From Methanocella arvoryzae MRE50 (GTDB lineage Archaea; Halobacteriota; Methanocellia; Methanocellales; Methanocellaceae): 64,000 bases of DNA. Where the stretch lies: contig NC_009464.1 in assembly GCF_000063445.1 (NCBI RefSeq), positions 2,294,001-2,358,000 on the forward strand, in the 5' to 3' direction. A program made the position numbers and the translations under genes. The notes under the pieces were generated by a model. It was not told where the DNA came from, did not search any database, and worked only from the letters and a program-made list of their open reading frames with translations. Positions within the stretch are counted from its first letter, which is position 1; every line of letters begins with the position of its first letter. Shown here piece after piece: positions 8,497 to 21,286 of the stretch.

Positions 8497-9921
8497 TCAA
8501 GTGACGATATATGGCGCCAGCTCATCTCTACCTCCCCCGCACGCTGGTAATGTAATAACGAACCGGCTGCCCTTCGTATAGTCCCCGGCGACGCGGTCTT
8601 CGACTCTGATGCTGCCTTTGGCGTCCTCGATCAGCATACGGGCGATGAAGAGTCCCAGGCCGCTGCCTCTGGTGCGGGGCCTTCCGCTGATGGACCTGTC
8701 GAAGAGCTTTTCCTTCGTCTCGTCGGGTATGCCGGGGCCGTCGTCTTCTATGTTGATCAGGTGGTAATGTTTCCCGTTCTCGGCCTTCTTCTCTACCGTG
8801 ATCCTGACCGATACCTGCCCGGCGGAATGCCTGATGGCGTTGTCGACCACGTTTCTGAACGCTTCTTTTAAGAGCGGGCTGGCCATGGCATAGCAGTCTT
8901 CCGGGGGCTGGTAGTCTATCGTGATCTCCCTGTCAGGCGTCCGGGCGTATTCTTTCTGCACTTCCCCCAGCAGGCTGCCTATGTTCGCTATTTCCCGCCT
9001 GCTCCCTCCTGTCTGGATGCTCTGCAGCTTCCGCACGTTGTCGATCAGCTTCGAGCTGTTCTGCATCGATTCGAGGGGCTGCCGGAGCAGGGCTTTCCAC
9101 TCGTCGTCGGCCTCCATCGTATCGAGGGCTATCTCGAGGTAGCCGATGCCGACCTGGTTGAGGTTGTTGATGTCATGCCCCATAAGGTCGACGTACAGCT
9201 CAGCCCGTCGGCGGGCTTCGGTCAGCTCTTCCTCCGCCTGCCTGCGGGGGGTGATGTCCCTGGCGGAGGCGATGATCACGTTTTGATCCCTTAGCTTGAT
9301 CCGGTGGAGGCTGACCTCTGCGGGGAAGGTCGAGCCGTCGGCGGGCTTCTTCGAAGTCCACTCGAAAAGCTGTTCCTCTCCCGCCATGGCCTTATCCCAC
9401 GCCTGCCTGAAGAGCCCCTCCGGGGCTTCAGGAGTGATGAAGTAGTCGGCCAGCGATAGCTTTGTTGCCATGTCCTTCGGCATTCCGTAGATCTCTGCGG
9501 CGCGATCGTTGACGTCCATTATTTCGCCATTCAGGCCGCAAATGAAGATCGCCTGGTCGATGCTGTTGAAAATGCCCCGCAGGTCCTCCTCCGAGGTCTT
9601 GCGTACCTGACTGTAGAGCCGGCCGCTGGTTTCGGAGAGCGCGGCTACGACCAGGGCTACTACCAGCAGCGTGAACGCTCTGGCCAGGGTTCCGGGCACT
9701 ATGGAGCCAGTAAGATATAGTCCCATGCATATGTGCAGGGCTCCCAAAAACAATGAGAGGTAGACGGCTTTCCAGTAGTACCAGATCCCCGTCAGCACGA
9801 CGGGCACGTAGAACAGGTGGGTGTACACCGTGTCTGTGCCGAGGAACAGGTTTACGTAGAGCGCAACTAAGGTGCTTGCCGTTACCAGCAAGCCTATAAG
9901 GTACTTGCGGTACTCTAACAT
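8497..9921 (-). CDS. Membrane PAS-domain sensor histidine kinase
   Basis: 474 residues. Order: four or so N-terminal helices (1-95), one PAS domain (about 118-235), a phosphoacceptor helix with YVDLMGHDINNLNQ (His near 252), and an HATPase domain with N box FRNVVDNAIRHS, G1 box DDGPGIPDE and G2 box GSGLGLFIA. HDINN is a variant H box. It probably autophosphorylates in response to a membrane or PAS-bound signal. It is paralogous to the next gene upstream. No response regulator is adjacent; the nearest is at 44 kb. Confidence 0.88.
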   Translation of the reverse strand: MLEYRKYLIGLLVTASTLVALYVNLFLGTDTVYTHLFYVPVVLTGIWYYWKAVYLSLFLGALHICMGLYLTGSIVPGTLARAFTLLVVALVVAALSETSGRLYSQVRKTSEEDLRGIFNSIDQAIFICGLNGEIMDVNDRAAEIYGMPKDMATKLSLADYFITPEAPEGLFRQAWDKAMAGEEQLFEWTSKKPADGSTFPAEVSLHRIKLRDQNVIIASARDITPRRQAEEELTEARRRAELYVDLMGHDINNLNQVGIGYLEIALDTMEADDEWKALLRQPLESMQNSSKLIDNVRKLQSIQTGGSRREIANIGSLLGEVQKEYARTPDREITIDYQPPEDCYAMASPLLKEAFRNVVDNAIRHSAGQVSVRITVEKKAENGKHYHLINIEDDGPGIPDETKEKLFDRSISGRPRTRGSGLGLFIARMLIEDAKGSIRVEDRVAGDYTKGSRFVITLPACGGGRDELAPYIVT

Positions 9922-10042
9922 TCGCTACCTCACTATGGTCAATGTCAGCCTGTTTTTATTCCGGGAGCGGCTGGCTGTGACAATAATTAGTATATAAGCG
10001 CCTGTAGTATATATAATGAGGTATGGCAGCCGCTGGGACGTA

Positions 10043-11893
10043 TCAGGCGTGTGATCGCTGGTCCCCGTGCTTCGGCAGCATTACGACGAACCGGCTGCCA
10101 TGGGTGTGGTTTCCGGGGATGCGGTCCTCTACCCAGACGCTGCCTCCCGCGTCGTCTACCAGCGACTTCACGAGGAACAGGCCCAGGCCGGTGCCCGCGG
10201 TCCTTGAAGTGCCCCTTACTTTGCGGCTGAACAGCTTTTTCTTCAGCTCGTCAGGTATGCCGGGGCCTGTGTCTTCCACGTCGACTCTGTAGAACCGCTT
10301 ACCCCTATCTTCCGTCTCCGAGACCTTGATCCAGATCGTCACCGGGCCTGTAGAGTGCCTGACTGCGTTGCTCACCAGGTTATAGAAGGCTTCTTTGATC
10401 AGCACGCTGGCATTGACGCAGCAGGCGGTGACAGGCTGGTAGTTGATAGTCACCTTCCTGCCCGGCACGTCGGTAAAAGTTGCGGCCACAGTGGAAAGTA
10501 GCTGGCCGAGGTCTATGATCTCGTGCAGGTGCTTCTCTGCCTCTATCTGCTGTATTTTTCGCACGTTCTGGATGAGGGCGGAGCTGTTCTTCATCGCGTC
10601 CAGAGCCCGGCGCAGTGTGTTGCTGCTATCCTCGTCCAGATCCAGGGTATCCATCGCGACTTCGAGGTACCCGATCCCCTGCTGGTTCAGGTTGTTGATG
10701 TCGTGCCCCAGCAGGTCGACGTACAGCTCTGCCCTGGTTTTGGCATCATGCAGCTCTCTCTCCGTCCTTTTCCGGGCGGTGATGTCGTAGAAGATGACCA
10801 CTGCCCCGGTAATTTTGTCTTCCTCTCGTATCGGAGTAGACGAATATTCGACGGGGAAGCAGGTCCCGTCATGGCGCCAGTAGACCTCGTCGCTGACCCG
10901 GACGCCCTCCCCTGTCTTTACCGATTTTTGTATCGGGCAGGCCTCCGCTGGAAACGGCGAGCCGTCAGGGTACTTGCTGTGCGCGAGCCCGTGGGCGTCC
11001 AGCCCGATCAGCTCTTCTGCCCCGTATCCCAGCATCTCTGCCGCCGACCTGTTAATAAAGGTGATCCGCCCCATGGTGTCGATCCCATAGATACCCTCGT
11101 CGGTGGACTCCAGCAGCAGCCGGAGGTTTTCTGCCAGCCTGTTGCGCTCTTCTTCAGCCCGCTTTCGAATGGAGATGTCCCTGACCGTCGCCAGGATCAC
11201 GTCATTCTCCCCGAGCCTGATCTTGCGGAGGTAGACCTCGACCGGGAAGGTGAAGCCGTCATGCGGCCTCCTGGCAAGCCACTCGAAGATCTGGTCATCG
11301 CCAGAGATGACTCTTTTCCATACCCGGTCTAACTCGTCCAGAGGATTGGCCGGGCTGGAGTAGTCCTGCTTGATCGACAGCCGGCGGGCTTCGCCTTCAG
11401 TCACCCCGTACATCTGGAGCATCCGGTCGTTGACTTCGATGATGCTGCCGTCAAGCCTGTGGATAAAGATGGCATCGGACACGCCGTTGAATATGCTTCG
11501 CAGCCTTTCTTCGGACTTCCTGACACTCTCGAACAGCTCTTCCCTGGCTCCAGACAGCGTCCCTATGACGGCGGCTACGGCCACGAACATGATCGCCCTG
11601 ATGATGGTGCTCGGCACAATGGATCCCGTGGCTTCGATGCCCAGGTAGATGTGCAGCCCGGCTAAAAATAAGGCCAGGAACACCGCCTTCCGGTAATACC
11701 AGATCGCCGCGAGAATGATCGGCAGGTAGAAGAAGTGGGTGTAAACGGTCTCGATGCCGTAGACTAAGTTAAAGTGCAGGGCTATTGCTATACATACCAG
11801 GATAAGCGCCACGATCAGGTACTGGCGGTACTGGGCCATCAGAGCCCATACCGGCCGGATGTCTGCGCCAGCCGGATTTCCTCGGGTCGACAT
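10043..11893 (-). CDS. Membrane sensor histidine kinase with two PAS domains
   Basis: 616 residues: N-terminal membrane helices, PAS 1 (about 130-240), PAS 2 with PAC (about 255-370), the same YVDLLGHDINNLNQ phosphoacceptor helix as its neighbour, and an HATPase domain (DTGPGIPDE, GTGLGLFLV). It differs from the 474-residue kinase chiefly by one extra PAS domain, so tandem duplication is likely. An internal ATG at 11839 (MAQYRQYLI) aligns with the start of the shorter kinase (MLEYRKYLI) and may be the true start. Confidence 0.87.
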   Translation of the reverse strand: MSTRGNPAGADIRPVWALMAQYRQYLIVALILVCIAIALHFNLVYGIETVYTHFFYLPIILAAIWYYRKAVFLALFLAGLHIYLGIEATGSIVPSTIIRAIMFVAVAAVIGTLSGAREELFESVRKSEERLRSIFNGVSDAIFIHRLDGSIIEVNDRMLQMYGVTEGEARRLSIKQDYSSPANPLDELDRVWKRVISGDDQIFEWLARRPHDGFTFPVEVYLRKIRLGENDVILATVRDISIRKRAEEERNRLAENLRLLLESTDEGIYGIDTMGRITFINRSAAEMLGYGAEELIGLDAHGLAHSKYPDGSPFPAEACPIQKSVKTGEGVRVSDEVYWRHDGTCFPVEYSSTPIREEDKITGAVVIFYDITARKRTERELHDAKTRAELYVDLLGHDINNLNQQGIGYLEVAMDTLDLDEDSSNTLRRALDAMKNSSALIQNVRKIQQIEAEKHLHEIIDLGQLLSTVAATFTDVPGRKVTINYQPVTACCVNASVLIKEAFYNLVSNAVRHSTGPVTIWIKVSETEDRGKRFYRVDVEDTGPGIPDELKKKLFSRKVRGTSRTAGTGLGLFLVKSLVDDAGGSVWVEDRIPGNHTHGSRFVVMLPKHGDQRSHA

Positions 11894-12039: not shown

Positions 12040-12447
12040 CTATTTCATCCTGAGCACTTTGATGATGCCCTCCATGATGGCCTCGGGCTTGGGCGGGCAT
12101 CCCGGAATTTTGACGTCGACGGGGATGATTTTGTCTACCGGACCGGCGATCGAGTAGTTCTCGTCGTCGATGAAGACGCCGCAGGAGCAGCCGCACGCGC
12201 CTATCGCAATCACTCTCTTGGGCTCGGGAGTCTGGGCGTACACCCTTTCCAGGAACGGCTTCGTGTGCAGCGGCACCGGGCCTGTGACCAGCAGCACGTC
12301 AGCGTACCTCGGCGAGGGCACCAGCCTGACGCCTAACCTTTCCAGGTCGTACCTCGGCCCCATGCTGGCTACAAGCTCGATATCGCAGCCCACGCAGCCT
12401 CCGGCATGAGCGTGGTATACCCAGGGTGAACGCTTGATCATGTTCAT
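12040..12447 (-). CDS. Group-4 [NiFe] hydrogenase small subunit, NuoB/EchC-like
   Basis: A 135-residue electron-transfer subunit. It has the Cys set of the proximal [4Fe-4S] cluster: GGCVGCD (C18, C21), GACGCSCG (C85-C89) and PGCPPKP (C117), in the NuoB/EchC pattern. Within the complex it would sit under the large subunit and pass electrons from the Ni-Fe site to the ferredoxin-like subunits. Last gene of the eight-gene operon, directly after the NuoI-like gene. Short even for EchC. Confidence 0.82.
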   Translation of the reverse strand: MNMIKRSPWVYHAHAGGCVGCDIELVASMGPRYDLERLGVRLVPSPRYADVLLVTGPVPLHTKPFLERVYAQTPEPKRVIAIGACGCSCGVFIDDENYSIAGPVDKIIPVDVKIPGCPPKPEAIMEGIIKVLRMK

Positions 12448-13113
12448 CTAAATCCACTTCCTGGGGTGGGTGCCCCATATCAGGCTGTATTTCTGCCTGC
12501 AGTCGACGCAGGCGGTCAGGTATTTCTCCATGTCCTTCTCGATGACTTTAGCCGTGTCCGGCTGCAGGTTGGTCAGCGTACGGTCACGGACGACCTGCAG
12601 GAACTTTTCGGTCGCAGGCATCACTTCCCCGCAGACGCTGCACCTCTGCAGCTTCAGGGAGGTATCCGTGGTCGGGGCGGGCTCTCCTCCGTAGTGGGCG
12701 AGGTTCACCCTGTCCATGGACCCCGGCATGCCGGCCTCTACCTGCGCCCGGACATCGTCTGCCTTGCCTGCATTCCTCAAGGCTTCTTCTCTGGCGGCTT
12801 TTTCCTCTGGCGTCTGCGGCTCGAAGGTCAGGCTCAGCGCGTGCTCGGGGCACGCATCCGCGCACCGGCCGCAGAAGATGCAGTTGTTGCCGTCGACCGT
12901 GACGGTGCGCTGCCCGTCCTTGTCAGTGATCTTCGTGGCTCCGCTGGAGCACCGCTCGAAGCAGGCGCCGCAGCCTGTGCACTTCTCGTCGTCCCTCCGG
13001 GGCATGGCCCGGTAGGTCTCTGCCAGGAACCCGTAGTCGACGTCGACCGTGACCGGCTTTTTAAACAGGTTGGCGATCAGCCCTGTAAATGCCCCGAACT
13101 TTCCCTTCATCAT
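12448..13113 (-). CDS. NuoI/EchF-like ferredoxin subunit with extended C-terminus
   Basis: 221 residues. Two [4Fe-4S] motifs (CTGCGACFERCSS and CIFCGRCADACP) lie in the first 100 residues; the first lacks the usual final Cys-Pro. A further Cys-rich region follows, with CSVCGE near residue 170 and CVDCRQK near 205, which could bind zinc or another cluster; EchF proteins normally end well before this. ATG overlaps the NuoH-like stop (ATGATG junction). Confidence 0.82.
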   Translation of the reverse strand: MMKGKFGAFTGLIANLFKKPVTVDVDYGFLAETYRAMPRRDDEKCTGCGACFERCSSGATKITDKDGQRTVTVDGNNCIFCGRCADACPEHALSLTFEPQTPEEKAAREEALRNAGKADDVRAQVEAGMPGSMDRVNLAHYGGEPAPTTDTSLKLQRCSVCGEVMPATEKFLQVVRDRTLTNLQPDTAKVIEKDMEKYLTACVDCRQKYSLIWGTHPRKWI

Positions 13114-14051
13114 AGTATGAACCTCCATGCCACAGCCCAGGCAATGGCGATGATGCCGAGCGCGGTCGAAGCGGTGAACAGCCACTTCGTGGCCTGGTCT
13201 ATGCGGAACCGGGCGAACAGTGCGTTCACGATGCCGATGGCGACGCTGACCACGAACGCTCCGGCCAGGAACAGGGCCCACGAGGCCACGCCCGGGAGCG
13301 TCCACCCCTTGGGGACCCACAGGAACAGGTCTACGAACAGGGCGGACAGCGAGAACAGCATCAGTACCTTGGTGATCTCCAGCACGCCCAGCAGCTTGCC
13401 GCTGTACTCCGTCGTCAGCCCGCCCACGATCTCCGAGTCGGCCTCGGCTATGTCGAACGGCCGGACGTGAAGCTTCACCAGCATCGCAATGAAGAACGCC
13501 GCCGCGGCGAACGGATTGAGCAGCAGGTTAGGGCCCATCATGCCCTGCACGGATAGAGTATCATAAGTTATCGCGAGTGCGAAGGTGCCCAGGATGAAGG
13601 GTATCTCGTTGGCCAGCATCAGCTCGATCTCCCTCACCCCGCCGATGGCGGCGAAGAGGGACGCGCTGGCGGTGCCTCCGATGATGATGCACATGGTGAC
13701 GCCTATGAGCAGGTAGAAGATGATGACGAGGCTGAAGGAGTAGTCGAAAGCCAGGCCTGCCACCGGCACGAACAGCGTGAGCGCCAGCGCGAAGACCAGC
13801 GCGATGATAGGCCCTATCGTGAAGAACGGCGTGGCTGTAGCGGGCAGGATGGTTTTCTTGCTCAGCAGCTTCAGGATGTCGTAGAGCGGCTGCAATACCT
13901 TGGTCCGGTTGATGTCGTGCCACGCGCCGGGCATCCACACCAGCGGGCCCCGCCGGGACTGGATCCGGGCGAACACCTTGCGCATGTTGAATGCTAAGAG
14001 TATGCCGACCCCGAAGGCGATGAAGGGGTTGATCCACGACAGGTCGATCAT
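13110..14051 (-). CDS. NuoH/EchB-like membrane subunit
   Basis: 313 residues with about eight transmembrane helices, the ion-channel-forming NuoH (HyfC/EchB) subunit. Family motifs visible are RRGPLVWMPGAWHDINR near residue 25, RPFDIAEADSEIVGG near 190 and the following TEYSG. It anchors the hydrogenase to the membrane and couples electron flow to ion movement. ATGA overlap with the large-subunit gene. It is the only large membrane subunit in the operon. Confidence 0.88.
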   Translation of the reverse strand: MIDLSWINPFIAFGVGILLAFNMRKVFARIQSRRGPLVWMPGAWHDINRTKVLQPLYDILKLLSKKTILPATATPFFTIGPIIALVFALALTLFVPVAGLAFDYSFSLVIIFYLLIGVTMCIIIGGTASASLFAAIGGVREIELMLANEIPFILGTFALAITYDTLSVQGMMGPNLLLNPFAAAAFFIAMLVKLHVRPFDIAEADSEIVGGLTTEYSGKLLGVLEITKVLMLFSLSALFVDLFLWVPKGWTLPGVASWALFLAGAFVVSVAIGIVNALFARFRIDQATKWLFTASTALGIIAIAWAVAWRFIL

Positions 14052-15508
14052 TTCTCCTCCCTGCTGCGGACGACGATCTTCGCGTCCTTGTGGACGGTGA
14101 CTCTGTCCGTGCACGAGTAGCACGGGTCGATGCTGCCCATGATCGCCGGCACGTCAGCCACGTAGGAGCCGTGCAGCAGCTTGAGCATGATGTAGGCGGT
14201 CATGAAGGTGGGCACCCGGATGCGGACGAACTCGGGCGTGTTGGTGCCGTTGGATGCCACGTGGTAGAGCAACTCGCCCCTGGGCGGCTCGGTCTTGCCC
14301 AGCGCTTCGGCGCACGGCAGCTCTTCCAGCTTAGTGATGATCTCCGGGGGCACCGTGCTGAGCTTTTCGAGGCACTGCTCTACGATGCTGATCGAGACCA
14401 GCGCTTCCCTCATCTTGACCTCCACTCTGGCCAGGGAGTCGCACCCGTTATCGGTGACGATGTCCCAGTCCAGGTTCTCGTAATAAGCATAAGGCGTGTT
14501 CTTCCGCACGTCCAGCCTCTGGCCGGAGCCCCTGGCTGTCGGCCCGACGGCGCCGAGCCGTACCGCCTCCTCCGGGGGCAGGACGCCCACGTTTTTGAGG
14601 CGGCCGATCAGCACGTTGTTCGAGAGCATCTCGTCGTACAGGGTCTGCACTCCCTTTTTCAGGGATGCGAGCTTCCTCTTCACGAAGTTCGACTGGGCCG
14701 GAGTGATGTCTCTCCTGACACCGCCCAGCGTAATCAGGCCGTGAGTGACCCGCTGGCCGGACACGAGCTCGAGGCTGTCCTGGATGTCTTCCCTGATCCG
14801 CAGGAACTGCATGAGCATGGTCTTGTAGCCCACAAGGTCCCCGAGGATGCCGATCGCCATCAGGTGGCTCTGGATCCGCTCCATCTCGCAGATCATCGTC
14901 CGTATGATGTCCGCACGCTTCGGCACGGTGACCTGGCCGATGTTTTCGACCGCAAGGCAGAAAGACAGCGCGTGGTGAGCGTTGCACAGGCCGCACACTC
15001 TCTCGGCGAGGTAAATATCCTTGTAGTAGTCCCGCCGCTCCATGAGCTTGATGATGCTGCGGTGGTTGAAGCCCAGCTTCAGGTCTGCTTTCTTGACCAC
15101 CTCGTCCTCCACCGCCATCTTGAAGTAGTTGCTCTCGATGAAGGCCGGATGGTACGGGCCGTACGGGATCGTGGAGACCGGCATCGTGGTGATGTGGTCG
15201 CTGGCCTGGATGGACTGCGGCTTCTTCTCTGGGGCTGCCTCATCGGTGTGCATCTGCTCCCAGTTCAGGGGCAGCCAGAGGTGGCGGGGATCGGGGTGCT
15301 CCTCCGCCCTCACGCCCAGGAACTCGATCATCTCCCGCTCGGACCAGTCGGCCTGCGGGGTAAGCGTGGTGACAGACTTCAGCACCGGGTTTTCCCTGTC
15401 CAGGAAGGTGCGGAGGATCGTGTGGCACCCGGGCTCCAGGTGGTCGAAACCGAAGTAGTAGTCTACCCGGATGCCGGCGACGCCCTTGTCGACGCCGGTG
15501 GCATACAT
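14048..15508 (-). CDS. Fused NuoC-NuoD type [NiFe] hydrogenase large subunit
   Basis: 486 residues from the first ATG. An N-terminal NuoC-like part (about 1-85, with PQADWSEREM) is followed by the catalytic NuoD part. Both nickel-ligand pairs of a true hydrogenase are present: RVCGLCNAHH (C172, C175) and DPCYSCTDR (C463, C466). The fusion recalls HycE/HyfG. The open frame continues upstream to 15607 with sequence that fits the missing first beta-alpha unit of NuoC, but offers no ATG, GTG or TTG; a CTG (15593-15595) or ATA start is possible. The C-terminal tail after the second motif is 17 residues. Confidence 0.85.
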   Translation of the reverse strand: MYATGVDKGVAGIRVDYYFGFDHLEPGCHTILRTFLDRENPVLKSVTTLTPQADWSEREMIEFLGVRAEEHPDPRHLWLPLNWEQMHTDEAAPEKKPQSIQASDHITTMPVSTIPYGPYHPAFIESNYFKMAVEDEVVKKADLKLGFNHRSIIKLMERRDYYKDIYLAERVCGLCNAHHALSFCLAVENIGQVTVPKRADIIRTMICEMERIQSHLMAIGILGDLVGYKTMLMQFLRIREDIQDSLELVSGQRVTHGLITLGGVRRDITPAQSNFVKRKLASLKKGVQTLYDEMLSNNVLIGRLKNVGVLPPEEAVRLGAVGPTARGSGQRLDVRKNTPYAYYENLDWDIVTDNGCDSLARVEVKMREALVSISIVEQCLEKLSTVPPEIITKLEELPCAEALGKTEPPRGELLYHVASNGTNTPEFVRIRVPTFMTAYIMLKLLHGSYVADVPAIMGSIDPCYSCTDRVTVHKDAKIVVRSREEK

Positions 15509-15596
15509 CAGCCTGCCGCCTTTGTCCAGCAGGCCCTTAGCCGAGGACCTCAGGTCGTCCGGGGTGATCTCCCGGACTTGAAGGCCGTTTGCCAGG

Positions 15597-15869
15597 CTAT
15601 TTATCTTTCACACCCCCGAAAGGCGCGTTCGGCGCGTAAGCCTCTTCCGAGTTCAGGTACATCTCGCTGGCCCCGCAGTTGAAGTTCTCCTCCACCCTGT
15701 GGTGCTCCGGAAAGAGCGACGGGATGAGCACTGAGAAGAACATGTAGAAGGACACCAGCGATGCCAGCTCGGCGAACAGGAACAGCAGCGCCAGGTCTGT
15801 GCCGATAAAGAGCGCTCCTATGACGCTCAGCGATAAGATGACGAGTGCGATCTTGAAGTAAGGTTTCAT
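15597..15869 (-). CDS. Small two-helix membrane protein of the hydrogenase operon
   Basis: 90 residues with two predicted helices (about 5-25 and 28-52), then a soluble tail containing ENFNCGAS. The topology and the single Cys-Gly after the helices loosely recall NuoA, but identity is unproven. ATGA overlap with the HdrB-like gene upstream; its stop lies about 90 bp ahead of the first ATG of the large subunit. It probably belongs to the membrane arm. Confidence 0.6.
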   Translation of the reverse strand: MKPYFKIALVILSLSVIGALFIGTDLALLFLFAELASLVSFYMFFSVLIPSLFPEHHRVEENFNCGASEMYLNSEEAYAPNAPFGGVKDK

Positions 15870-16741
15870 TGCTGACTGTTCTCCAGTTTTTCCACGAGCC
15901 TGTCCACCGGGGCGGTCCGCATGTAGCGCATGCCGAAATCGTCGGGCTTCAGGCCGAACGAGATCGCGATCAGCTCCCCGAGATGGATCACTGGCACGTT
16001 GAAGTCGTAGCCGTCCTTCTTGCGGAGCGTAGAGATCACCCGCTCGAACTGATCGTAGCACCCTGCGCAGACCAGGACCAGCGCGTCCACGTCGGTCTGC
16101 AGGATGCGGTCCATCTTCTTCTTGGCCCGGTCGTAGGTGGCGAAGTCTTTGTCCGCCAGGTTCGACTGCAGGCCGCAGCACATCTGTTCCAGCCCGTAGG
16201 GGACGATCGTGACTCCCATCGCCTCTAGTATTTCGGTGAAGTACCGGACCAGCCTGCCGTCCGGGAAGATGCGCATGTGGCAGCCAGGATGGATGGCGAC
16301 ACGGAGGTTAAGCTTTTTGCCTTCCCGCCTGATCCTCTCCACGCCCACGTCCTCGTACAGGACCTCCAGGAAGTGCCTGATCCTCAAGTTGCCGTGATAC
16401 GATTTGCCCGCCGCTGCCAGGTAGCTGTTGACCTCTTCGAGGGCTTTCGGCTCCTCGTGGAGGACCTTGTTAGCCTCGTAGAGGGTCACATAGCACCCGT
16501 TACAGGAGACCATCACGTCTCTGCCCTGCTGCTCAGCCTGCAGCAGATTATAGGAGGCCAGCGTCAGCCAGACTCTCCTGTCCACCGAGATCCAGACGCC
16601 GGCTCTGGGGCAGCACGTCGACTTCTCCAGGTAGACAACGTCGACGCCCATGCGGGGCAGGCTTTTCATGATGGCCGCCTCAGCCCAGGGCATCTTGGCA
16701 GGCATCACGCAGCCGAGGAAATGCGAGTATTTCGCGGTCAT
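15866..16741 (-). CDS. HdrB-like CCG-domain protein
   Basis: 291 residues with two cysteine-rich CCG-type motifs: an N-terminal set (GC at 11, STCCPRAG at 43-44, SCNGCY) and a C-terminal set (HPGCHMR, MCCGLQSN, CAGCYDQF). In HdrB such motifs bind the noncubane [4Fe-4S] clusters that cleave the CoM-S-S-CoB disulfide; related domains act in lactate and succinate oxidoreductases. Here the gene lies inside a membrane hydrogenase operon, with ATGA overlaps on both sides. The start MTAKYSHFLGC matches the family. Confidence 0.82.
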   Translation of the reverse strand: MTAKYSHFLGCVMPAKMPWAEAAIMKSLPRMGVDVVYLEKSTCCPRAGVWISVDRRVWLTLASYNLLQAEQQGRDVMVSCNGCYVTLYEANKVLHEEPKALEEVNSYLAAAGKSYHGNLRIRHFLEVLYEDVGVERIRREGKKLNLRVAIHPGCHMRIFPDGRLVRYFTEILEAMGVTIVPYGLEQMCCGLQSNLADKDFATYDRAKKKMDRILQTDVDALVLVCAGCYDQFERVISTLRKKDGYDFNVPVIHLGELIAISFGLKPDDFGMRYMRTAPVDRLVEKLENSQQ

Positions 16742-17010
16742 TTGTACCTGTACTCCATGCGGTCGAGATCCAGGCCTACCGCCCTGTCCACACCCATGGC
16801 CTTGACGATCTTCCGGATGTCCTCCACTGCCTCGGTGTACCTGTGGGCGGTCGGAGGTATCGGGTCCAGTCCCGCCTTCTCCCTGGCCTCCTTGAGCTCG
16901 TCCGTCACCGGGTAGAGCAGGCCTACTGAGAAGTGCCTGATAAGCTGGGGTTTGACAGTCGGCGGCAGCGGAATTTTCACTGCTTTCCGCCACGGGTATA
17001 GCTCGGTCAT
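16738..17010 (-). CDS. Small soluble protein between polyferredoxin and HdrB-like gene
   Basis: 90 residues, no cysteine, rich in charged residues, with PWRKAVKIPLPPTVKPQLI at the start. It overlaps both neighbours by four bases, so it is almost certainly translated. It occupies the place where HdrC would be expected next to HdrB, but has no cluster motif. I do not recognise the family; a connector or assembly subunit is a guess. Confidence 0.6.
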   Translation of the reverse strand: MTELYPWRKAVKIPLPPTVKPQLIRHFSVGLLYPVTDELKEAREKAGLDPIPPTAHRYTEAVEDIRKIVKAMGVDRAVGLDLDRMEYRYK

Positions 17011-17510
17011 CTGTTCTCTGACTCCTTGTTATTCTGGTCCGCCTGTATGGCTTCCGCCATCCTGGCGGCAGCTTCTTCCCGGGACATCATCTTAATCGCC
17101 TTGGGCGAGCAGACCTTGATACATTCAGGATCGCCCTGGCACATGTCGCACTTGACCATGATCTTCAGCCCTCTGCCGATATGCGGGATGGAGATCGGGC
17201 ACGCGTACATGCAGGACTTGCAGCCGACGCAGAGCATCTGGTCGATGGTTACGAACCCCGTCTGCCCGTTCTTCTTGCACGCCCCGGTGGGGCAGGCGGC
17301 CACGCACATAGGGTCCCTGCAGTGGTGACAGTGCACCCTGACAAAACCCCCGCTGGGGTCTTCCAGGACCTTGCACATCGATAGATTATAGTTGTACGTC
17401 CTGTATTTTTTAAAAGAACACGCCGTCATGCACTGTCTGCAGCCCGTACACAACGCGGGATCGTGGAGGATTATATCAGTCATAAGCTTCCCGGGGTGGC
17501 TTCTTAACAT
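17007..17510 (-). CDS. Polyferredoxin, CooF/HycB-like
   Basis: 167 residues with the four-cluster CooF/HycB pattern: CTGCRQCMTAC, CHHCRDPMCVAACPTGAC, CVGCKSCMYACP and CDMCQGDPECIKVCSP. It would pass electrons between a soluble donor and the membrane hydrogenase. The start at 17510 has GGTGA seven bases upstream; ATG at 17483 (MTDIILHDP) is a plausible alternative. First gene of the operon. A C-terminal helix (about 135-155) is rich in Ala, Glu and Arg. Confidence 0.82.
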   Translation of the reverse strand: MLRSHPGKLMTDIILHDPALCTGCRQCMTACSFKKYRTYNYNLSMCKVLEDPSGGFVRVHCHHCRDPMCVAACPTGACKKNGQTGFVTIDQMLCVGCKSCMYACPISIPHIGRGLKIMVKCDMCQGDPECIKVCSPKAIKMMSREEAAARMAEAIQADQNNKESENR

Positions 17511-17761: not shown

Positions 17762-18007
17762 ATGGTTAAGATACTTGTAGATAACAACGTATGTATCGGG
17801 TGTGGCCTGTGCGCGCACGATTGCCCCATGAAGGTCTACGCGATCAAAGACGGGCGATCAGTCGTCGTAAATCAGGATGACTGCATGCAGTGCCTGTCAT
17901 GTCATGAGGTATGTCCTTCCAATGCCATCGAGCACCAGGACATCTACTTATCCAGGAGACTGTACGTCGATCTCGAGGTATGTTCTATGCTGCGGAGGTT
18001 CATTTAA
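17762..18007 (+). CDS. Ferredoxin, 2x[4Fe-4S]
   Basis: 81 residues with two cluster motifs, CIGCGLCAHDCP and CMQCLSCHEVCP. It heads the soluble hydrogenase operon and is the obvious electron partner of that enzyme. The C-terminal residues (MLRRFI) are encoded inside the first unit of a 43-bp tandem repeat, so the end of the protein may have been altered by that duplication. Confidence 0.85.
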   Translation: MVKILVDNNVCIGCGLCAHDCPMKVYAIKDGRSVVVNQDDCMQCLSCHEVCPSNAIEHQDIYLSRRLYVDLEVCSMLRRFI

Positions 18008-18076
18008 TGATGTTGACATCTGCATTCACCTCCTGCGGAGGTTCATTTGATGATCTCAACATTTGCATTCACCTCC
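17991..18076. repeat. 43-bp tandem direct repeat, two units
   Basis: Units 17991-18033 and 18034-18076 match except at a few positions. Each unit starts TGCGGAGGTTCATTT and ends TTCACCTCC, so each has a GGAGGT and its complement ACCTCC about 30 bases apart. Unit 1 overlaps the ferredoxin stop; unit 2 ends just before the AGGAGGT Shine-Dalgarno site of the V4R gene (18079-18085). The ACCTCC copies could pair with that site in the mRNA. Confidence 0.8.
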
Positions 18077-18093
18077 GAAGGAGGTTTAACTGA
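18007..18093 (+). CDS. Possible 28-residue leader peptide in the tandem repeat
   Basis: An ATG overlapping the ferredoxin stop (TAATG), with GGAGGT seven bases upstream, opens a 28-codon frame. Its TGA overlaps the ATG of the V4R gene (TGATG). The spacing is ideal for translational coupling, but composition gives no sign of selection and the frame may simply reflect the repeat. Low confidence as a gene. Confidence 0.25.
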   Translation: MMLTSAFTSCGGSFDDLNICIHLRRRFN

Positions 18094-18620
18094 TGTCTCA
18101 GGTTGCGATAGTCAAGCCGGAGGAGCTGCCTCTCCAGTGTGAAGGCAATATTACCGACTACGAAGAAGCCCTGCACGGGCTGATGGTACTGAACGCGACT
18201 ATCATTCGGTCGCTCGAAGAGATCGCCAGAGGCGGCGCTAACGCCGTGGTATACCGGGCCGGCATGAAGATGGGCCACGAGACCGCGAAGTACTTCCCCA
18301 AGACCGATAACGTGGAGAAGGCGCTGAAGGAGCTCTCCGACATCCTCGGCAGGCAGTACAACTTCGAGCTGTGGAAGCCCAAGGACAAGGACAGCTATAT
18401 CATCACCGAGAACGGCGAGACCTTCATCTACCTCGTGTTCCGGGACTGCCTCGTCAGGCAGACGCTGCGCCGGGAAGGCATGGCCCAGAAGGGACCGCTA
18501 TGCCAGAGCCTCTATGGCTACATGGTGGGCGCGGTCGAGGAGATCACGGGCAAGCGCGGCAAGCTGGAAATCGTCCACGTAGGTCCCAACACCTGCCTGA
18601 AAAAGCTGATTCTGAGGTGA
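18093..18620 (+). CDS. V4R (4-vinyl reductase-like) domain protein
   Basis: 175 residues. The C-terminal half looks like the V4R small-molecule-binding domain: GMAQKGPLCQSLYGYMVGAV, then EIVHVGPNTCLKKL, with Cys at 119, 137 and 168. V4R domains occur in sensors of hydrocarbons and in bacteriochlorophyll and tetrapyrrole proteins; here the ligand is unknown. An AGGAGGT site precedes the ATG by eight bases. Its place between a ferredoxin and the hydrogenase subunits suggests a sensory or assembly role. Confidence 0.72.
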   Translation: MSQVAIVKPEELPLQCEGNITDYEEALHGLMVLNATIIRSLEEIARGGANAVVYRAGMKMGHETAKYFPKTDNVEKALKELSDILGRQYNFELWKPKDKDSYIITENGETFIYLVFRDCLVRQTLRREGMAQKGPLCQSLYGYMVGAVEEITGKRGKLEIVHVGPNTCLKKLILR

Positions 18621-18624
18621 TCGA

Positions 18625-19545
18625 GTGATCAAGCTTGCTACCGAGCCGCTGGCCTCCTGCGCCGGCTGCCACATGTCGCTGCTCGACCTCCACGAGGACC
18701 TGCTCGAGCTGCTCAACAAAGTAGAGATCGTCTACTCGCCCATCCTGATGGACGTCAAGGAGCCCCCCGAGGACATCGACATCGCCATCATCGGCGGAGC
18801 CATCCGCAACAAGGAAAACATGGAGAGGGTCAAGAAGCTGCGGCAGCGCGCCAAAACCGTCATCGCTTTCGGCACCTGCGCCTGCTACGGCGGCGTCTCC
18901 GGCCTGTCCATCCTGCACAGCAGGGACGAGATCCTGAACGGCGTCTACACGAACCGGCAGGGCACGACCACCAACGTCATCCCGAACCAGGACATCCCCG
19001 ACCTCTTATACCGCGGCTACGCCGTCGGCGACGTCATCAAAGTCGACTACTACATCACCGGCTGCCCGCCCAAGGAGTTCTTCCTGCGCCAGATCCTGCT
19101 TCCCCTCATAGAGGGCAGAATACCTGACCTGCAGAAGAAGTCGGTCTGCTCCGAGTGCGACCGGGAAATGGTCCTGGTCAAAGACTGGAAGATCAAGCGC
19201 AGGTACGAGGGCGTGCCCGAGGAAAAGACCTGCCTGCTGGGCCAGGGCTACATCTGCCTGGGCTCGGTGACCTTCGGCCGGTGCCACGCTCTCTGCACCC
19301 ATCACGGTATCCCCTGCCACGGATGCGGCGGACCGTCGCTGGACGTGCTCAGAGAGCCGTGCAGGGACATCTACAACACGCTGGTCATGCGCATCCAGCA
19401 CCTGACGGAATTACCCCAGCAGGAGATCGAGAAGGAACTGTACGACATTCCTCATACCGTATACCCCTTCGTCATGGGCAGCAAGATCATGGAGAACAAA
19501 TCTGTCTCTAAGATTCCCGACATCATCAAGGAGAGACACCTATGA
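18625..19545 (+). CDS. [NiFe] hydrogenase small subunit, MvhG/FrhG-like
   Basis: 306 residues. The N-terminal flavodoxin-like part has the proximal cluster Cys residues (SCAGCHMS, GTCACYGG, TGCPPKE). The C-terminal part has CSECDRE, the series CLLGQGYICLGSVTFGRC and CHGCGGP for two more [4Fe-4S] clusters, as in group 3 F420- or Hdr-linked enzymes. GTG start with GAGGTGA four bases upstream. Neither MvhD nor FrhB is in the operon; the ferredoxin gene takes their place. ATGA overlap with the large subunit. Confidence 0.87.
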   Translation: MIKLATEPLASCAGCHMSLLDLHEDLLELLNKVEIVYSPILMDVKEPPEDIDIAIIGGAIRNKENMERVKKLRQRAKTVIAFGTCACYGGVSGLSILHSRDEILNGVYTNRQGTTTNVIPNQDIPDLLYRGYAVGDVIKVDYYITGCPPKEFFLRQILLPLIEGRIPDLQKKSVCSECDREMVLVKDWKIKRRYEGVPEEKTCLLGQGYICLGSVTFGRCHALCTHHGIPCHGCGGPSLDVLREPCRDIYNTLVMRIQHLTELPQQEIEKELYDIPHTVYPFVMGSKIMENKSVSKIPDIIKERHL

Positions 19546-20945
19546 AGAAGATCACCATTCACCCCATCACCAGAATAGAGGGCCATGCCAGCGTAACGGT
19601 CCAGCTCGACGACAAAGGCGAGGTGGCGGACGCCCACTTCCACGCGACCGAGCTCAGGGGCTTCGAAAAGTTCCTGGAGGGCGCGGCCATCGAGGAAGCG
19701 CCCAGGATCACCCCCCGGATTTGCGGCATCTGCCCCACAGTGCACCACCTCGCCGCCGCCAAGGCAGTAGACGAGGTCTTCGGCGCCACGATCCCGGAAG
19801 CGGCTTACAAGATGAGGGAGCTTCTCATCGCGGGCCAGCTTATCAGTTCGCACTACTTACACCTGTTCATGCTTAGCATGCCCGACTACCTGCTGGAAGG
19901 GGCGACCCCCGCGACGAGGAACGTCGCCGGCCTGGCCAAGGCCAATCCGGACCTCGCCCGCATGGCTATCGAGGCCCGCAAGATCGGCCAGCGCATCACC
20001 GAAGAGGCGGGAGGCAAGCCCATACACCCGGTATCGGCCATACCCGGCGGCATGTCCTTCTCGCTGACAGAGCAGAAACGGGCCGAACTTGAGGCATACG
20101 CTAAGCGCTCCCTCGAGATCGCCGTGGCTGCCTGGAACCTGGTCAACGGAGAGTTCGACAGGAAAGCGGACTTCGTCAAGACGCTGGGCGTGGTGCAGAC
20201 GGACTTCATCGGCATGACTTCGGGCGGCAAGTTCGAGACCTACGACGGCCCCATCCGCATGATGGACGCGAACGGCGGCAGCCTGGGCGAGTTCCAGGCG
20301 AAGGACTACTCCTCCCACATAGAGGAGTACGCTGAGCCGTACTCTTACATGAAATTCACCAAACTCAAGTCCGGCAGCGGCTTCTACCGTGTCGGCCCGC
20401 TGGCCCGTGTCAACGTGGCCGACTCCATGGGCTACCCGGAGGCCGACAAAATGCTGGCCGAGTTCCGGGCGAAGTACGGGAGGGCGCCACAGCAGCCTGC
20501 CCTGTACAACCTTGCCCGGATCATCGAGGTCGCCGCAGCCAGCGAGCGCGCGCTCGCACTGCTGCAGGACAGGGCGATCACGGACAAGAACGTGCGCAAC
20601 CCTGTCGCCGGCATCAAAAACACCCGGGGCGTGGGCATCGTGGAAGCGACCAGAGGCACGCTCATCCACGACTACACCGTAAACGACAAGGGATTCATCA
20701 CCAGCGCCAACCTGATCGTGGCGACCGGCCACAACAACCGGGCCATCGACAGGGGCGTCTTCGAAACGGCGAAGAAGTACATCCACGGCGACGCCGACGA
20801 GGCCACTCTGAACAAGATAGAGATGCTCGTCCGCGCCTACGACCCGTGTGTCTCCTGCGCCACCCATGCCATCGGGCGAATGCCTATCATCCTGAGCTTA
20901 TTCGATAGCGAGGGTAACGTTATACGTGAGGTTAAGCGATGCTAA
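19542..20945 (+). CDS. [NiFe] hydrogenase large subunit, MvhA-like
   Basis: 467 residues. L1 motif RICGICPTVHH (C61, C64) and L2 motif DPCVSCATH (C436, C439, H442) supply all four nickel ligands, so the enzyme should be catalytic. A 25-residue tail follows H442, the usual cleavage point, and would need a maturation peptidase; none is encoded in the window. It overlaps the roadblock gene by seven bases, a strong sign of coupled expression. Confidence 0.88.
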   Translation: MKKITIHPITRIEGHASVTVQLDDKGEVADAHFHATELRGFEKFLEGAAIEEAPRITPRICGICPTVHHLAAAKAVDEVFGATIPEAAYKMRELLIAGQLISSHYLHLFMLSMPDYLLEGATPATRNVAGLAKANPDLARMAIEARKIGQRITEEAGGKPIHPVSAIPGGMSFSLTEQKRAELEAYAKRSLEIAVAAWNLVNGEFDRKADFVKTLGVVQTDFIGMTSGGKFETYDGPIRMMDANGGSLGEFQAKDYSSHIEEYAEPYSYMKFTKLKSGSGFYRVGPLARVNVADSMGYPEADKMLAEFRAKYGRAPQQPALYNLARIIEVAAASERALALLQDRAITDKNVRNPVAGIKNTRGVGIVEATRGTLIHDYTVNDKGFITSANLIVATGHNNRAIDRGVFETAKKYIHGDADEATLNKIEMLVRAYDPCVSCATHAIGRMPIILSLFDSEGNVIREVKRC

Positions 20946-21286
20946 AGCGGATATTAAGCGATCTGGTAAAAGTTGAGGGAGTGTCGGCAGCAGCTATAGT
21001 AGGCAGAGACGGGTTCATCATCGAGCACGTCTCCAACATACAGATGGACGTCGACGCGCTGGGCGCCATGGCGTCGACCAGCGTCGGTACTTCGGAAGCC
21101 ATGGGCATAGAGCTGAGCAAAGGCAACTTCGAGCAGGTGCTCGTCGAGCTGGAAAAGGGGCCCATCATGCTCTCCCTGGTCACGGGCAACGAGATCCTGG
21201 CCATCGTCGCAGAGCCGGGCTCCAACCTCGGCCGCATTCGGTACGAGGTCAAGAAAAACAAGGACAGAATTGCAGCTGCACTCTAA
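20939..21286 (+). CDS. Roadblock/LC7 domain protein
   Basis: 115 residues, a single roadblock fold: LSDLVKVEGVSAAAIVGRDG, then the central helix with MASTSVGTSEAMG and a closing helix. These proteins dimerise and bind Ras-like GTPases (MglB with MglA) or motor and kinase scaffolds. No GTPase is encoded nearby; the only nucleotide-binding partner in the operon is the MinD-like ATPase. Start overlaps the hydrogenase gene. Confidence 0.83.
   Translation: MLKRILSDLVKVEGVSAAAIVGRDGFIIEHVSNIQMDVDALGAMASTSVGTSEAMGIELSKGNFEQVLVELEKGPIMLSLVTGNEILAIVAEPGSNLGRIRYEVKKNKDRIAAAL

Follow-up and report, generated by a model that had tools for sequence, protein, structure and literature searches.

The stretch of DNA analysed here, referred to as the window, comprises 64,000 nucleotides (positions 2294001-2358000 of the single 3,179,916-base chromosome of Methanocella arvoryzae MRE50) and contains an operon in which the core of a membrane [NiFe]-hydrogenase is joined to an HdrB-like protein and no antiporter gene is present. 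The question raised by this locus is whether such an enzyme works without an ion-translocating module, or whether that module is encoded elsewhere in the genome. The initial annotation, made from the DNA letters, had taken the first position, and proposed a membrane enzyme coupling H2 and ferredoxin to a thiol or disulfide substrate. According to the account in PMC6046458, Lyu & Lu 2015 gave a novel Methanocella hydrogenase the tentative name disulfide-reducing hydrogenase (Drh). The same paper reports that Drh, but not Ech, is upregulated when M. conradii grows in syntrophic coculture, and that Drh has affinity to the clade of CooH (CO-induced) hydrogenases. The Methanocellales Drh cluster is drawn beside Ehd of Methanomethylicia, Ehe of Culexarchaeia and Ehg of Nezhaarchaeia in Fig. 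4C of PMC9723716, and the view put forward there is that Drh, having no ion antiporter subunit, might reduce CoM-S-S-CoB with H2 without forming an ion gradient. The operon studied here is the Drh of Methanocellales, already described and not new. What we add to PMC9723716 is the probable assignment to Drh of an unlinked antiporter and HycI protease, and the description of an HdrC-tail and a two-helix subunit.

Composition of the Drh operon

Eight minus-strand genes, read from 17483 to 12040 of the window, make up the operon in the following order:

17007..17483, minus strand: CooF-like ferredoxin subunit, 158 aa, four CxxC-type [4Fe-4S] motifs (Pfam Fer4_11 and others)
16738..17010, minus strand: HdrC C-terminal-like protein (HdrC-tail), 90 aa, without clusters, matching positions 95-142 of TIGR03290 (E 5.8e-10)
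15866..16741, minus strand: HdrB-like subunit, 291 aa, two intact CCG motifs (TIGR03288, E 3.7e-70)
15597..15869, minus strand: two-helix small membrane protein (sTM), 90 aa, two predicted helices, invariant Glu34 in helix 2
14048..15604, minus strand: fused NuoC-NuoD [NiFe] large subunit, about 518 aa, Complex1_30kDa and Complex1_49kDa, start uncertain
13110..14051, minus strand: NuoH-type membrane subunit, 313 aa (PF00146, E 6e-55)
12448..13113, minus strand: NuoI-type 2x[4Fe-4S] subunit, 221 aa, Fer4 matches, PRK12387-like
12040..12447, minus strand: NuoB-type small subunit, 135 aa (PF01058, E 5.6e-32)

Profile matches bear out the NuoB, NuoI, NuoH and fused NuoC-NuoD subunits named in the initial annotation, together with its CooF-like protein and its HdrB-like CCG protein. 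The nickel ligands are intact, as it had stated: the motifs RVCGLC and DPCYSC of NuoCD contain all four cysteines, which align with those of HycE and MbhL, and the best PDB match of NuoCD is HycE of formate hydrogenlyase. These four large-subunit ligands and the NuoB, NuoI and NuoH partners are traits of group 4 (energy-converting type) [NiFe]-hydrogenases. The antiporter-like subunit, a further trait of that group, is absent from the operon, and an unlinked orthologue backed by strong genomic evidence is the candidate for it. The NuoB-type subunit shows 86-89% identity in relatives and the CooF-like protein 73-81% conservation in the other three Methanocellaceae genomes; the NuoI-type subunit carries an additional CxxC...CxxC at its C-terminus, and an alignment of NuoH shows acidic residues E141, E143, E149, D200, E203, E207 and E215 to be invariant across five relatives.

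The HdrB-like protein aligns end to end with the solved HdrB 5odc_B (E 6.5e-64), and the proposed check of its ligands by alignment came out in its favour, the cluster cysteines of both CCG motifs being kept. It stands well apart from the nearest other HdrB-like proteins of the M. arvoryzae genome (35-36% identity). Two small proteins had been reported as unknown; both are present, and one of them is recognizable by TIGR03290 as the C-terminal part of HdrC, the other being the two-helix membrane protein. Wherever the HdrC-tail gene is found it adjoins an HdrB gene, also in the incomplete genome G053, which belongs to another family. The HdrABC set is incomplete, since the operon has neither HdrA nor a flavin subunit, and HdrC is represented by its C-terminal part alone.

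Four-base overlaps, described earlier as almost universal, occur exactly at five of the seven gene junctions; NuoI and NuoB abut, and sTM and NuoCD overlap by about 8 bases if NuoCD starts at ATA. The open frame and the homology of NuoCD extend upstream of its first ATG (15508), to about 15604, and an ATA or other unusual start is likely because no ATG, GTG or TTG precedes that ATG. The suggested synteny search for a hydrogenase core with HdrB found both in one cluster, the combination by which Drh is recognized, and in the same gene order in all four Methanocellaceae genomes searched (M. arvoryzae and three others); the recurrence of this order in the three others places the operon far beyond chance. 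In a tree of large subunits with Ech, MbhL and HycE as references, nine Drh and six Ehd-type sequences grouped together to the exclusion of these (100/100).

The surroundings of the operon are less constant. A divergent plus-strand operon (window 17762-21286) encodes a ferredoxin, a V4R-like protein, VhuG-like and VhuA-like hydrogenase subunits and a Roadblock protein; of the four Methanocellaceae genomes, only that of M. paludicola does not have it next to Drh. Directly downstream of nuoB lies a tandem pair of related membrane sensor histidine kinases (window 8497-11893, minus strand), which had no match beside Drh in the relatives examined. In Methanocella sp. PtaU1.Bin125 a partial second nuoB 3' end is found downstream of nuoB (L049, 13148-13387).

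The unlinked antiporter and HycI genes

No PF00361 antiporter gene lies inside the Drh operon, and all four in the M. arvoryzae genome are located elsewhere. Three of them sit in two clusters, those of Ech and of an Ehr-like complex without nickel ligands, and were rejected as Drh partners, each being within its own cluster. The locus G000:C1:764144-771590 (L037) encodes two antiporters together with a NuoD-like subunit devoid of nickel-ligand cysteines, a second membrane complex that adjoins molybdopterin oxidoreductase (formate dehydrogenase-like) genes. The fourth antiporter is an orphan, paired with a protease gene:

chromosome 2252288-2253733: orphan antiporter, 481 aa, profile match to PF00361, about 52 kb from the Drh operon
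chromosome 2253734-2254213: HycI-family hydrogenase maturation protease, directly after the orphan antiporter

This pair (G000:C1:2252288-2254213, equal to L061 9289-11214) is unlinked to any hydrogenase operon. Each of the four Methanocellaceae genomes has such an unlinked pair, in a common setting between an aminotransferase gene and gap (glyceraldehyde-3-phosphate dehydrogenase), and the orphan antiporters of the other three genomes are 60-62% identical to the M. arvoryzae copy. The pump residues are intact, with E130, K208, H223, K288, K328 and K383 matching MbhH.

In a set of 60 genomes from the phylum, antiporters of 51% identity or more were found in 5/5 genomes with a Drh-type NuoCD and in 0/55 without it, where the best match reached 36% identity; the chance of such a co-occurrence would be 1.8e-7 if the genomes were independent, which they are not, four of the five belonging to one family. 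A scan of named genomes with the Drh large subunit led to metagenome-assembled genomes (MAGs) labelled Methanoregula (L050), Methanospirillum (L051, L053) and Euryarchaeota (L052), whose labels and operon ends may be wrong. In L050, L051 and L053 nuoB of the Drh operon is followed by a same-strand antiporter, 54-57% identical to the M. arvoryzae orphan, and then HycI, and in L052 the sequence stops within the antiporter gene after the operon. When compared with M. arvoryzae, these in-operon antiporters have the orphan, and not an Ech-type antiporter, as best match (53-57% identity), the next best being about 31%. Furthermore, in a tree of 63 antiporters the Methanocella orphans and the in-operon copies formed one clade (100/100), whose sister comprises the in-operon Ehd-type antiporters of Bathyarchaeia, Odinarchaeia and Methanomethylicus, with a branching order nearly identical to that of the large-subunit tree. 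Orthology and co-occurrence of the unlinked antiporter, like the operon's composition, ligands and clade with Ehd, are established at the level of sequence.

The contig labelled Methanoregula has further features. In L050 (403-18678) the genes cdhB-cdhC-cdhD-cdhE-acsV directly precede the Drh operon, those of AcsV and CooF touching each other, and the operon is followed by the antiporter, HycI, a MinD/CooC-type ATPase and an acetate-CoA ligase, so that CODH/ACS is linked there to an HdrB hydrogenase. We suspected L050 of being a mislabelled Methanocella; the label was not disproved, because its cdhC is nearest to that of a genome outside Methanocellaceae (74%), followed by M. arvoryzae (72%).

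In G053 the Drh modules are spread over three contigs, one with the core, CooF and the two-helix protein, one with the antiporter, and one with HdrC-tail, HdrB and HycI; contigs C7 and C8 had no shared end in an end-overlap test. The last module forms a separate cluster (L126 5516-7176, G053:C107), and the core operon of this genome is without HdrB. HycI thus accompanies HdrB in G053 and the antiporter in Methanocella, which ties antiporter and HdrB to one hydrogenase.

These observations change part of the initial reading. The absence of an antiporter gene is true of the operon alone, since the genome has an orphan antiporter with HycI that falls in one clade with the antiporters of Drh operons and co-occurs with Drh, and the same applies to the published trait "no antiporter subunit"; the statement is probably wrong in both places. 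Two findings had been named beforehand as speaking against the annotation: a gene at another locus for an antiporter of this complex, which has probably been found 52 kb away, and a described subgroup with this exact composition, which is Drh. The proposal of a membrane H2 enzyme with a thiol or disulfide module agrees with the sequence and coincides with the published Drh hypothesis, its antiporter-free half being probably mistaken.

A candidate mechanism and its alternatives

Drh is, in our judgement, quite probably a split-locus, ion-translocating membrane hydrogenase tied to HdrB, with its antiporter and HycI 52 kb away. A more specific proposal, on which we lean only slightly to the positive side, is that Methanocellales possess an ion-pumping, cytochrome-free membrane H2:disulfide oxidoreductase with genes over two loci, in which the antiporter joins the eight products of the operon as a ninth subunit, with the HycI protease in addition. 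As to physical assembly, substrate, direction and ion, we infer the following. The NiFe site (NuoCD/NuoB/NuoI), where H2 reacts, would exchange electrons with HdrB and its two non-cubane clusters, and the CooF-like protein and the HdrC-tail would be the wire between both modules; plausibly, CooF stands in for the cluster-binding half of HdrC and the separate HdrC-tail holds HdrB. The likely substrate pair would be CoM-S-S-CoB / CoM-SH + CoB-SH. The location of antiporter and HycI at a second locus makes it most likely that electron transfer is coupled to ion movement, and NuoH, the two-helix protein and the antiporter could provide this coupling, as proposed for the relative Ehd; ions would move outward when H2 reduces the disulfide and inward in the reverse reaction. 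The revised midpoint of CoM-S-S-CoB is -281 mV, as cited in PMC12054007, and the H2 couple lies at about -296 mV at about 10 Pa H2 by our own calculation. With that midpoint, and at the low H2 pressure favoured by Methanocella, little energy would be available for pumping unless the disulfide pool were oxidised.

The two-helix protein may be a membrane-arm subunit at the antiporter interface. In hhalign it matches the TM4-TM5 hairpin of antiporter-like subunits with a probability of 77%, and NuoK with a lower one of 27-29%; a PDB search with the family gave no significant match. Its invariant Glu is predicted from the alignment to be buried within the second helix. The gene adjoins the antiporter gene in Ehd-type operons, and since full antiporters stand beside it there, we rejected the idea that it is the remnant of a lost antiporter and consider it a separate subunit.

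The published alternative, in which Drh truly lacks an antiporter, H2 reduces CoM-S-S-CoB without energy conservation and the orphan serves something else, agrees with the absence of the gene from the operon in all four Methanocellaceae and is asserted in PMC9723716. We consider it very unlikely, given that the closest relatives of the orphan lie within Drh operons, beside nuoB and with the same HycI neighbour, that among the 60 genomes the orphan type co-occurs solely with Drh, and that a methanogen short of energy would lose some of it through a non-conserving Drh. In bacterial systems that oxidise CO, CooF is the carrier of electrons from CODH. Another alternative is that CooF is a second electron entry and that the electrons passing through Drh come mainly from CODH/ACS or ferredoxin, the other end being H2 or the disulfide. 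The cdh genes directly before Drh in L050, and the ATPase and ligase genes after it, agree with CooF also accepting such electrons. However, M. paludicola has Drh and no CODH/ACS (PMC3146512), so that this intake cannot be the sole role, and of the four Methanocellaceae searched, M. arvoryzae alone gave a close match to cdhC; as the main function of Drh we regard it as unlikely.

The identity of the disulfide is a further point on which readings differ, since HdrB-like proteins serve other reactions too. A thiol/disulfide pair other than CoM-S-S-CoB would fit the distance of the Drh HdrB from its nearest paralogues and the occurrence of Drh relatives in Bathyarchaeia and Odinarchaeia. Nevertheless, the cysteines of this HdrB align fully with those of the solved methanogen protein, and CoM and CoB are coenzymes of Methanocella, which is a methanogen. 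A different disulfide is proposed in PMC9723716 for Ehe of Culexarchaeia, whose host lacks full CoM/CoB synthesis; for Drh we hold this to be a doubtful option.

Ion pumping by Drh would give Methanocella a direct, cytochrome-free chemiosmotic site at the heterodisulfide step, overturn the published non-conserving view and provide these HdrE-less methanogens with an alternative to the Vht-HdrDE chain. The antiporter assignment alters the predicted energetics of rice-field methanogens and, if pumping occurs, the upregulation of Drh in syntrophic low-H2 growth becomes directly testable. A module should not be called absent merely on the ground that the operon does not contain it.

Drh among related systems

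The operon agrees with Drh as it is presented in PMC6046458 (after Lyu & Lu 2015) and PMC9723716 in its organism group, Methanocellales, in combining a [NiFe]-hydrogenase core with HdrB and, as far as those accounts describe the cluster, in having no antiporter gene within it. Ehd and Ehe (PMC9723716) share with Drh CooF, HdrB, the two-helix protein and NuoCD-H-I-B, most of them also the HdrC-tail, and differ in carrying the antiporter gene inside the operon and in belonging to other lineages. Common descent of the large subunits in one clade (100/100) was tested with Ehd-type sequences, and the two complete Ehd-type large subunits of Methanomethylicus have DQC..C at the second ligand pair, compared with DPC..C in Drh. 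Mvh-HdrABC likewise couples H2 to HdrB, but is soluble and bifurcates electrons by means of the flavin protein HdrA, whereas the Drh operon has no HdrA, flavin subunit or HdrC cluster domain. Ech, Mbh and formate hydrogenlyase resemble Drh in their NuoB/I/H/C/D architecture and NiFe ligands and, if the unlinked antiporter belongs to Drh, in their antiporter module; they have no HdrB, and their large subunits fall outside the clade formed by Drh and Ehd.
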